From Myxococcales bacterium (GTDB lineage: Bacteria > Myxococcota_A > Polyangia > Polyangiales > Polyangiaceae): a stretch of 49,365 bases of DNA. The translations under genes and the position numbers were made by a program. Positions 793 to 24,479 of the stretch are shown piece after piece. The notes under the pieces were generated by a model. The model was not told the DNA's origin and searched no databases. It saw nothing but the letters and a program-made list of their open reading frames with translations. The stretch is taken from the NCBI GenBank assembly GCA_012514535.1, contig JAAZAA010000119.1, positions 1-49,365 of the forward strand, written 5' to 3'. The first letter of the stretch is position 1. The number at the start of each line of letters is the position of its first letter.

Positions 793-1212
793 ATGAGCCA
801 TCTCAGCAACGCACAAGTCAGCCCGGTCTCGCGCCCGGTTCCTTCGAGCGCGGGCCCGACGAACCCCGGTCTCACCATCGCCCGGACCGCCAAGGCCCCG
901 GCGACCGGAGCTCCGGCCAGCGTCCCCGTTGCTGATACCCCGTCGGTCCGCCCGGAGACGCGGGCAGGTCACCCGGCGACGGGCGCCCCGGGACCTGACG
1001 CTCGTCAGGGAACCTCCGCGCGGATGAACGGAGGAGGGACCCTCGGGGGAATCGTCGGGGTAGAGAACGAGACGGAGACGCCCGAGGTGGTCGCCCAGAC
1101 GATCTACCGGCAGCTCCGTCAGGCAGGTTACTCCGAGCAGCAGGTCATCGCGCTGGCGGGCGAGCTGCTGTCCCTCGTGACGGCAGACGTACGGAACCAA
1201 AACCCGGGCTGA
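793..1212 (+). CDS. Small protein of unknown function, 139 aa
   Basis: I do not recognise a family. The first ~95 residues are Pro/Thr/Ala/Ser-rich and look disordered. The last ~45 residues look helical, with a conserved-looking segment (VVAQTIYRQLRQAGYSEQQV) followed by a hydrophobic stretch, so this end is probably the folded part. I chose the ATG at 793 because an AGG lies about 10 nt upstream and the region before it is relatively AT-rich. An in-frame ATG at 760 would add 11 residues. The gene stands alone, with non-coding DNA on both sides. No signal peptide is visible, so a cytoplasmic location is inferred. Confidence 0.55.
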   Translation: MSHLSNAQVSPVSRPVPSSAGPTNPGLTIARTAKAPATGAPASVPVADTPSVRPETRAGHPATGAPGPDARQGTSARMNGGGTLGGIVGVENETETPEVVAQTIYRQLRQAGYSEQQVIALAGELLSLVTADVRNQNPG

Positions 1213-1539: not shown

Positions 1540-3303
1540 GTGATGCCGGAGTCGTCCCAGCAGGAGAGCCCCGTTTACACCGTCATTGTCAGTGAGAAGG
1601 GCGGTCACGAGCGGCGCGAGGTGTTCCGTTCCGGAGAGGTGACGGTCGGACGGGTGCACGGCAACGACCTCGTGCTGCCGCGCGGCAACGTCTCGAAGCG
1701 GCACGCGCGGGTGCTCTACCGTGAGGGGCGCTTCATCGTCACCGACCTGAACAGCACCAACGGCACCTACGTCAACCGGCGGCGGATCGCCCAGGCGACG
1801 ATCGTCCGGGAAGAAGACAAGATCTACATCGGCGACTTCGTGCTGCGCGTCGAACCCGGCGCGCACGAGGCGGTGGCGGAGGGGCGGGGGACCCAGCCCG
1901 ATCGGGAGCCGAACGAGGGCCGGATCAGCAGCATCGACTGGGATCGTCCCTCGAGCTTCGACAGCCAGCGCGTCTCCTCGGGTCCGCCGGCCCGAGCCAG
2001 TGTCTCCGAGGCGCCGGCGGCGGATCGGGTCTCCACGGTCGGCCAAGGCCCCGACGAGCACATGGCGCCGCACCTGCACGCGGTCGCGGAGGTGATCCGC
2101 GCCGTCAGCGGCGCGTTGGGGGACATCCCCGTCGCCTGGTCGGAGGACGTGCGGCAGCGGGTGAACGCGATCGTCAACGAAGCAGCCGACGATCTGATGC
2201 TCCGCGGGGCGGTCCCCGCCGGGACGTCTCTGGAGGCGATCGTCACCCAGGCGCGGGGCGAGCTGTTCGAGTTGGGGCCCCTCGACGAGCTGCTCGATGA
2301 CCCGGCGGTCACGACCATCTCCGTCTCCCGATACGACGACGTCGCGGCGCGCCGCGACGATCGGCTCGTGCGCGTCTCGCCCGGCTTTTCGTCGCCTGCC
2401 TCCCTCGAGCTCGCGGTGCGCCGCTTGTGCGCTCGCGGGGGCGCGCCGGTGCGCCAAGGGGAGGCGCTGGTCGAGCGACGTCTCCCGCAGGGGACCCTGT
2501 CGGCGCTGCTCGGCGCGGTCACCTCGAGTGGGCCCTTGCTCGTGCTGCGTCGCCCTCGTCGGGTCGCTGGGTCCCTCGATGCCCTGGTGCGCCGCGGAAC
2601 CGTGTCCCGCGCGATGGCCACGTTCCTGAATTACTGCGTCTCCTGCCGCATCAACATCCTCGTCGTCGGGGCCGCCGACGACGGCGCCTCCACCGTGATG
2701 AGCGCCCTGTGTGGTGCCGCGTCGCGGGAGCGCATCGTGACCCTCGCGGAGGACGATGACTTCGCTCCGGAGGCAGCCACCCGACTCTCCCTGAGCGGGG
2801 AGGTCGATGCCAGCCGCGCCCTCCAGATAGCGGCCGCCATCCCGGAGGGGCGCCTCGCCCTGCAGCTCTCGAGTCCGGCCATCGCCCTGGCTGCCCTCGA
2901 AGCGATGGGGCACGGGGCGAGCGGCGTGCTCGCGTCCCTGGCGTCATCGGATCTGCGCCGCGCGCTCATCCGCTTGCCCGCGGACATCTGCGCGCTGCGG
3001 CCGGGGATGAGCCTGCAGGCGGCCAGCGCGTGGGTGCAGGGCTCCTTCGACGTGCTCGTCGAGGTCGCTCGCTTGCGCGATGGCCGACCGCGCACCCTGC
3101 GGGTCGCGGAGGTGGGCTACAGCGACCAATCGGCGCCCGTGCTCCACGACATCTTCCGCTTCAACGTGCAGCGCGTCGCGGTGGGCGGGAGCGTCGAGGG
3201 GAGCTTCGGACCCACCGGGTACGTGCCGCGCGTGGCCGCCCAGCTCCAGGCCCTCGGCGCGAACGTCGAGAGCTCCATGTTCAGCCGTCCGCCGTCCCGC
3301 TGA
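1540..3303 (+). CDS. FHA domain fused to a degenerate CpaF/TadA-type secretion ATPase
   Basis: Residues ~12-105 form an FHA phosphothreonine-binding domain, with the NVSKRHA and NSTNGTYVN motifs intact. After a linker, residues ~220-580 follow the CpaF/TadA type II/IV secretion ATPase plan: an LLDDPAVTTISV segment, then the NTPase fold. The catalytic sites are lost. The P-loop position reads GAADDGAS at 377-384, with Ala383 where the invariant Lys should be. The VGE catalytic-Glu motif reads LQL, and the His box is gone. I infer a pseudo-ATPase with a scaffold or sensor role. GTG at 1540 and ATG at 1543 are both possible starts. The upstream dyad may regulate it. Confidence 0.8.
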   Translation: MMPESSQQESPVYTVIVSEKGGHERREVFRSGEVTVGRVHGNDLVLPRGNVSKRHARVLYREGRFIVTDLNSTNGTYVNRRRIAQATIVREEDKIYIGDFVLRVEPGAHEAVAEGRGTQPDREPNEGRISSIDWDRPSSFDSQRVSSGPPARASVSEAPAADRVSTVGQGPDEHMAPHLHAVAEVIRAVSGALGDIPVAWSEDVRQRVNAIVNEAADDLMLRGAVPAGTSLEAIVTQARGELFELGPLDELLDDPAVTTISVSRYDDVAARRDDRLVRVSPGFSSPASLELAVRRLCARGGAPVRQGEALVERRLPQGTLSALLGAVTSSGPLLVLRRPRRVAGSLDALVRRGTVSRAMATFLNYCVSCRINILVVGAADDGASTVMSALCGAASRERIVTLAEDDDFAPEAATRLSLSGEVDASRALQIAAAIPEGRLALQLSSPAIALAALEAMGHGASGVLASLASSDLRRALIRLPADICALRPGMSLQAASAWVQGSFDVLVEVARLRDGRPRTLRVAEVGYSDQSAPVLHDIFRFNVQRVAVGGSVEGSFGPTGYVPRVAAQLQALGANVESSMFSRPPSR

Positions 3304-21647: not shown

Positions 21648-22763
21648 TCAGCGCTGCTGCGCTTGCGCGGCTCGCTGCGCGCCTTGTTCGATCATCATCC
21701 GCAGCTCCTCCACGTCGTTGGAGCGCCCCATGGCTTCCTCGAGCGAGATCAGTCGCCGCGCGTAGAGGGAGAACAGCGATTGGTTCAGGGTCTGCATCCC
21801 GTGGCCGAGCTGACCGACCTGCATCTGCGTGTAGATCTGATGGATCTTGTCTTCCCGGATCAGGTTGCGGATGGCGGCGTTGGGGACGAGCACCTCGAGG
21901 GCCAACACGCGGCCCGGTGCGCCCGCTCGCGGCAACAGCAGCTGGCTGATCACGCCCTCGAGCACGAAGGAGAGCTGCGCGCGGACCTGGGACTGCTGGT
22001 GCGGCGGGAAGACGTCGATGATGCGGTTGATGCTCTGGATGGCCGAGTTCGTGTGCAGCGTCGCGAAGACCAGGTGCCCCGTCTCGGCGATGGTCAGCGT
22101 GGCCTCGATGGTCTCGAGGTCGCGCATCTCGCCGACGAGGACCACGTCCGGGTCCTGCCGCAGCACGTACTTGAGCGCCGCCTTGAACGCGTTGGTGTCC
22201 GCGCCGACCTCGCGTTGGTTCACGATCGAGCGCTTGTGCGGATGCAGGTACTCGATCGGATCTTCGATCGTCATGATGTGCTGCCGCCGCTCGCTGTTGA
22301 TCTTGTCGATGATGCTGGCCAGCGTCGTGCTCTTGCCCGAACCGGTCGGGCCCGTCACGAGCACGAGGCCCCGCGGTTTGTTGGCGAGGTTGGCGATCAC
22401 CGGAGGGAGCCCGAGCTCGTCGAAGCTCAGGATCTTGAACGGAATGGACCGGAACGCGCCCGACACCGCGCCGCGCTGGAGGAAGATGTTGGCGCGGAAG
22501 CGCGAGAGGTTCTTCACGCCGAAGGAGAGGTCGAGCTCCTTGTTCTTCTCGAAGGCGATCTTCTGCTCCTCGGTGAGCACGGAGTAGCAGATCTGCTTGG
22601 TCTCCACTGGAGAGAGCGGCGGCAGCTTCAGCGGCACCACCTGGCCGTCGATGCGCAGCAAGGGCGGTGAGCCCGTCGTGATGTGCATGTCGCTGGCGCC
22701 CTTCTCGATCATGGCGCGCAGCAGCTGGTGGAGGTTGACCTTGACGCCCGTCCCTTGGTCCAT
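21648..22763 (-). CDS. pilT: Type IV pilus retraction ATPase PilT
   Basis: Hexameric motor that pulls type IV pili back, driving social gliding in myxobacteria. The 371-residue protein has Walker A GPTGSGKST at 138-146, the Asp box MTIEDPIEY at about 164-172, Walker B VLVGEMRDLETIE with the catalytic Glu, and His box TGHLVFATLHTNSA. The AIRNLIRE motif at 297-304, needed for retraction in PilT proteins, is intact and separates it from PilB. The start is the ATG at 22763, 12 bp after the pilB stop. Confidence 0.95.
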   Translation of the reverse strand: MDQGTGVKVNLHQLLRAMIEKGASDMHITTGSPPLLRIDGQVVPLKLPPLSPVETKQICYSVLTEEQKIAFEKNKELDLSFGVKNLSRFRANIFLQRGAVSGAFRSIPFKILSFDELGLPPVIANLANKPRGLVLVTGPTGSGKSTTLASIIDKINSERRQHIMTIEDPIEYLHPHKRSIVNQREVGADTNAFKAALKYVLRQDPDVVLVGEMRDLETIEATLTIAETGHLVFATLHTNSAIQSINRIIDVFPPHQQSQVRAQLSFVLEGVISQLLLPRAGAPGRVLALEVLVPNAAIRNLIREDKIHQIYTQMQVGQLGHGMQTLNQSLFSLYARRLISLEEAMGRSNDVEELRMMIEQGAQRAAQAQQR

Positions 22764-22775
22764 CGTCGTCCTTTC

Positions 22776-24479
<1,704 letters not shown>

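Follow-up and report, generated by a model that had tools for sequence, protein, structure and literature searches.

The FHA-IDR-CpaF architecture is already known from class III CpaF (PMC12019362) and from KilF of the Myxococcus Kil apparatus (PMC8460266). In CpaF the residues K287, T288, E312, R347, E357, R359, H382, R217 and R223 have been described as catalytic or nucleotide-contact residues (PMC12019362, PMC11300603). The K287A mutation abolishes the ATPase activity of CpaF (PMC12019362), and the E357A mutation abolishes its function (PMC11300603). The present analysis deals with a gene in which an FHA domain and a linker precede a CpaF-like body. It lies in the window, which is the whole stretch of 49,365 nucleotides that was analysed. 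The initial annotation had read its product, here called P0001, as an FHA protein carrying a catalytically dead CpaF/TadA-type ATPase. The features of the gene are as follows.

1540 to 3303, plus strand: gene of the putative FHA-linker-CpaF-like pseudo-ATPase P0001; intact frame of 587 aa, start at GTG 1540 or ATG 1543, stop at 3303; long orthologues in almost all Polyangiaceae genomes
1573 to 1857, plus strand: FHA domain, aa 12-106, with the GR, SKRH and STNG phosphothreonine-binding motifs intact
1858 to 2061, plus strand: disordered linker, about aa 107-174, with pLDDT below 50 for residues 109-173
2062 to 3300, plus strand: CpaF/TadA-type body, aa 175-587, made of a three-helix bundle, an N-terminal domain and a RecA-like C-terminal domain
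2665 to 2694, plus strand: former P-loop VGAADDGAST (SGGTGSGKTT in CpaF), with the codon of Ala383 at 2686-2688
2866 to 2868, plus strand: Leu443, by alignment at the position of the Walker B catalytic Glu (E357 of CpaF)
2941 to 2943, plus strand: Ala468, by alignment at the position of the His-box His (H382 of CpaF)

The CpaF fold and its former active site

The AlphaFold model of P0001 has a mean pLDDT of 86.8, and its best Foldseek matches are 8rjf, 9e24 and 8rkd, which are CpaF/TadA structures. VIA-align gave a Z of 31.4 over 406 residues against 8rjf, and phmmer matched residues 206-562 to 8rkd at 7.5e-18. P0001 scores below the TIGR03819 cut-off (86.2 versus 373.15 bits); it should be noted here that the intact FHA-CpaF on contig C179 of the same genome is also under it, with 334 bits. 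The fold on which the initial annotation depended is thus the one seen in the predicted structure.

The alignment with CpaF puts A383 of P0001 at K287, S384 at T288, L443 at E357, S445 at R359 and A468 at H382. The loss of the P-loop Lys, the catalytic Glu and the His-box His, which had been claimed from the sequence alone, is therefore borne out at all three sites. P0001 carries at the K287 position the same residue as the inactive K287A mutant of CpaF. Beyond these three losses the trans Arg finger is also absent from P0001. R347 corresponds to A433 and R223 to T319, and only R217 is kept among the Arg fingers, as R314. E312 aligns with D407, an uncertain assignment in a loosely aligned stretch. 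Among 79 family-level sequences the K287 column has no Lys at all and holds mostly A, T, V, L, H or G, while Glu stands in the E357 column of one sequence and His in the H382 column of three. We infer that P0001 does not hydrolyse ATP, and its reading as a pseudo-ATPase with a CpaF fold is supported.

Loss of hydrolysis would leave room for P0001 to bind ATP or ADP and to act as a nucleotide-state switch for an FHA partner. Some relatives do have a glycine-rich loop (GPxGSGVTT, SGRTT), and the residue equivalent to R217 is often kept. However, the loop of P0001 itself, GAADDGAS, lacks the Lys and most of the usual glycines, and the equivalents of E357, R223 and R347 are lost, which makes such a switch quite improbable.

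The FHA domain had been described as having its motifs intact, and this holds. It scores 64.5 bits with Pfam PF00498 (cut-off 20.7), the residues of the GR, S-K-x-H and STNG motifs are invariant in 48 orthologues, and FHA structures match the N-terminal part of P0001 with a Z of about 15.8 in VIA-align.

Selection and loss of the lysine within the family

The CpaF-like part might be regarded as a decaying remnant that does nothing more than carry the FHA domain. Its dN/dS is 0.04-0.35 in 16 close pairs that have no Lys. Its evolution is therefore more rapid than that of the FHA domain (dN/dS below 0.1 in 14 of the 16 pairs, with one outlier at 0.58) and than that of the same domain in f23, a lineage that keeps the Lys (0.035-0.041 in three pairs). 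These values are nevertheless well under 1, and in 14 of the 16 pairs they are lower than that of the linker of the same gene; the surveyed orthologues have long intact frames. In addition, a number of positions are conserved in the P0001 group but not in true CpaF, including S356, R357, E508, R516, R521 and D537, and residues 570-579 show stronger conservation in the P0001 group than in true CpaF. We consider mere decay to be extremely improbable. The sequence comparisons support a dead CpaF-like domain that is maintained by purifying selection, that is, a retained pseudo-ATPase. Together with the occurrence of orthologues across Myxococcota, they agree with the selection for a non-catalytic role that had been suggested at the outset.

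The long orthologues are found in nearly all Polyangiaceae genomes and through the order, with Sorangium, Polyangium, Minicystis and Labilithrix among the named records. A profile search extends the family to many other families of Myxococcota. In the scan of contig peptides P0001 alone gave no matches, and matches were found when the alignment was used as the query. A sequencing error or a frameshift is ruled out as the source of the losses, because orthologues in many genera have the same ones.

Whether the three sites are lost in all homologues of the phylum had been raised by the initial annotation. The losses hold nearly throughout the 79 sequences but they are not universal. The outlying family f23 has retained a P-loop GPxxxGK(T/S), and the Glu and the His as well apart from single exceptions. 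The activity of f23 is itself uncertain because its E312 and R347 columns are altered. Intermediate lineages carry SGRTT, SGVTT, GKA, or GPKHSGKT with an altered Glu. The initial annotation had also named, as grounds against itself, homologues with intact P-loops together with a sequencing error at this locus. The former do exist in f23, but f23 is another lineage of the same tree and there is no sign of the latter.

In a tree built after masking of the active-site columns, the family forms one clade against the GGTGSGKT proteins with a support of 100. This was a quick tree, in which several rows have long branches and KilF of M. xanthus is absent. With the same caution, an AU test rejected a single clade of all the rows without Lys (p-AU 2.0e-6), and with it a single loss of the Lys. 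As the outgroup carries the Lys and one clade without it is rejected, the simple reading of these sequences is that the Lys was lost more than once within the family.

Tad, Kil and other motors

A Kil/Tad-like cluster is present in the same genome at C179:1-14000, and it includes CpaB, a secretin, an FHA-CpaF, a second CpaF-type ATPase and a Ser/Thr kinase.

The initial annotation had proposed that the pseudo-CpaF may regulate a true CpaF of the Tad/Kil type by joining or blocking its hexamer, and had suggested a look for a true CpaF in the same genome. One is indeed there, since the FHA-CpaF on C179 is intact and is accompanied by the second CpaF, with CpaB and the secretin, and the fold is in common with P0001. 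The wider distribution speaks differently. The C179 protein was used as a query over 64 genomes with a family member, and matches with E below 1e-90 were taken as true CpaF. A true CpaF was found in 28 genomes, and in 36 it was not, the query matching at 1e-30 either the family member alone or nothing. The absence is threshold-based in genomes that are partly fragmented, although 32 of these 36 are at least 90% complete and at most 5% contaminated, and the near-complete, few-contig genomes G020, G029, G037 and G040 weigh most. CpaB was not found in 19 of the 23 genomes tested, and a CpaB match was obtained in exactly those four that have a true CpaF. In the loci examined, none of the genes beside the P0001-family gene was recognised as a Tad gene. 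Because so many genomes are without a true CpaF or CpaB, regulating a true CpaF is ruled out as the general role of the family. Hexamer control thus fails as a general account; it could apply in this genome, with the CpaFs of C179, and on the whole we find it very unlikely. Membership of P0001 in a Kil/Tad system was rejected on the tree, the locus and the absence of CpaB.

P0001 could still serve a motor of another kind, because these genomes retain motors for type IV pili or type II secretion. It would then be a non-catalytic adaptor of PilB/PilT of the type IVa pilus or of GspE of type II secretion. The window contains a PilT-like gene (21648-22763, minus strand) and a PilB-like gene (22776-24479, minus strand) with the intact P-loops GPTGSGKS and GPTGSGKT, respectively. 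Motor-ATPase matches are also found about 15-25 kb from the family gene in genomes G001, G008, G010 and G029. A precedent exists in the cooperation of PilU and PilT, in which PilU is reported to depend on PilT (PMC6762196). On the other hand, the region also carries def-ribD-nrdR-fab genes, so the linkage to pilT and pilB may be plain regional synteny, and G037 has a single weak motor match besides the family member. An adaptor role of this kind seems rather unlikely.

Neighbouring genes and a possible scaffold

In 24 genomes from 11 outer families, the family gene is followed on the same strand by a tandem-FHA gene, with a gap of -20 to 112 bp. Its product has two FHA domains and is a shorter protein in 2 of the 24 genomes. 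A membrane helix was predicted in all 13 of the adjacent tandem-FHA proteins examined, and some have TPR-like repeats. In Polyangiaceae this gene is absent beside the P0001-family gene; the genes downstream there lie on the opposite strand and were identified by eye, from their sequences, as def, ribD, nrdR and fab genes. The genome under study has a tandem-FHA paralogue of the same architecture, with a membrane helix, on contig C40 (679-2157, minus strand, of the extracted locus L228), and matches to it occur in every one of the 23 family-f1 genomes searched. It was not accepted as the adjacent partner missing here, because the adjacent gene coexists with a C40-type protein encoded elsewhere in f23 genomes, for instance in G192 and G064. 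In several of the closest relatives an FHA protein with a sigma-54 activator-like domain (by eye) is encoded about 3-5 kb upstream of the gene (L039, 280-1665, minus strand; L086, 941-2344, minus strand).

Upstream of the P0001 gene there is a further small reading frame.

1025 to 1212, plus strand: small upstream ORF, 62 aa or shorter, start uncertain, with the conserved motif VVAQTIYRQLRQAGYSEQQVIALAGELLSLVTADVR

It is present in most family-f1 loci that have enough upstream DNA, where its motif reads ILAKTIYRELRxSGYxExDVMALAGELLxxVTxEVKxRR. No credible Pfam family was obtained for this protein, which might be a partner of P0001.

Our data indicate that P0001 is probably an FHA-CpaF paralogue, distinct from the Tad/Kil motor, that has lost its ATPase active site and is kept as a phosphothreonine-reading scaffold. 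Control by phosphothreonine is suggested by the intact FHA domain, the retained fold and the FHA-rich neighbour. The CpaF body could still self-assemble or dock partners, and the FHA domain could be binding a protein that a Ser/Thr kinase of these bacteria has phosphorylated. Phosphorylation, and not ATP turnover, would then time the gathering of clients by the scaffold at the inner membrane. The membrane-anchored tandem-FHA protein encoded by the neighbouring gene would be the likely client in the outer lineages; for Polyangiaceae, a candidate is the small helical protein encoded upstream.

It is possible, and we put it forward tentatively, that a Myxococcota-wide, Tad-independent FHA-CpaF family has repeatedly been converted from motor to kinase-controlled scaffold, with a tandem-FHA membrane partner in the outer lineages and a small-protein partner in Polyangiaceae. 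If true, this would be a signalling complex built from the body of a pilus motor. Kinases and phosphatases provide familiar examples of pseudo-enzymes. In the present case it is the fold of a secretion motor that seems to have lost its catalytic function repeatedly in one phylum, and yet it is conserved, unlinked from the pilus and accompanied by half-decayed intermediates that are still extant. The family thus forms a graded set, occurring in nature, in which the role of a motor body without ATP turnover can be studied, and it suggests a phosphothreonine pathway that has so far escaped study in myxobacteria. A phylum-wide FHA-CpaF branch that has repeatedly lost catalysis and persists without Tad is apparently new, as no description of it was found in the open-access literature searched.

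The likeness to known systems is of four kinds. With the CpaF/TadA motor (8rjf, 8rkd, 9e24), P0001 shares over aa 175-585 the same three-helix bundle, N-terminal and RecA-like domains at about 20% identity. Unlike that motor it is without the Walker A Lys, the Walker B Glu, the His-box His and the equivalents of R347 and R223. Tad genes were not recognised next to it, and its family is retained in genomes in which searches gave no Tad motor. KilF (PMC8460266) and the class III proteins (PMC12019362) have the FHA domain, the disordered linker and CpaF in the same order, but the P0001 family is a clade separate from the GGTGSGKT proteins, and the KilF-like protein of its own genome is the intact one on C179. 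PilU and PilT of type IVa pili form a pair of related motor ATPases in which one is dependent on the other (PMC6762196); in the P0001 family the active site has been lost in evolution and a partner motor is hypothetical. Finally, the phosphothreonine readers GarA, OdhI and EmbR have the FHA fold and the phosphothreonine-contact motifs in common with P0001, whereas in P0001 the FHA domain is fused to a motor-like body.
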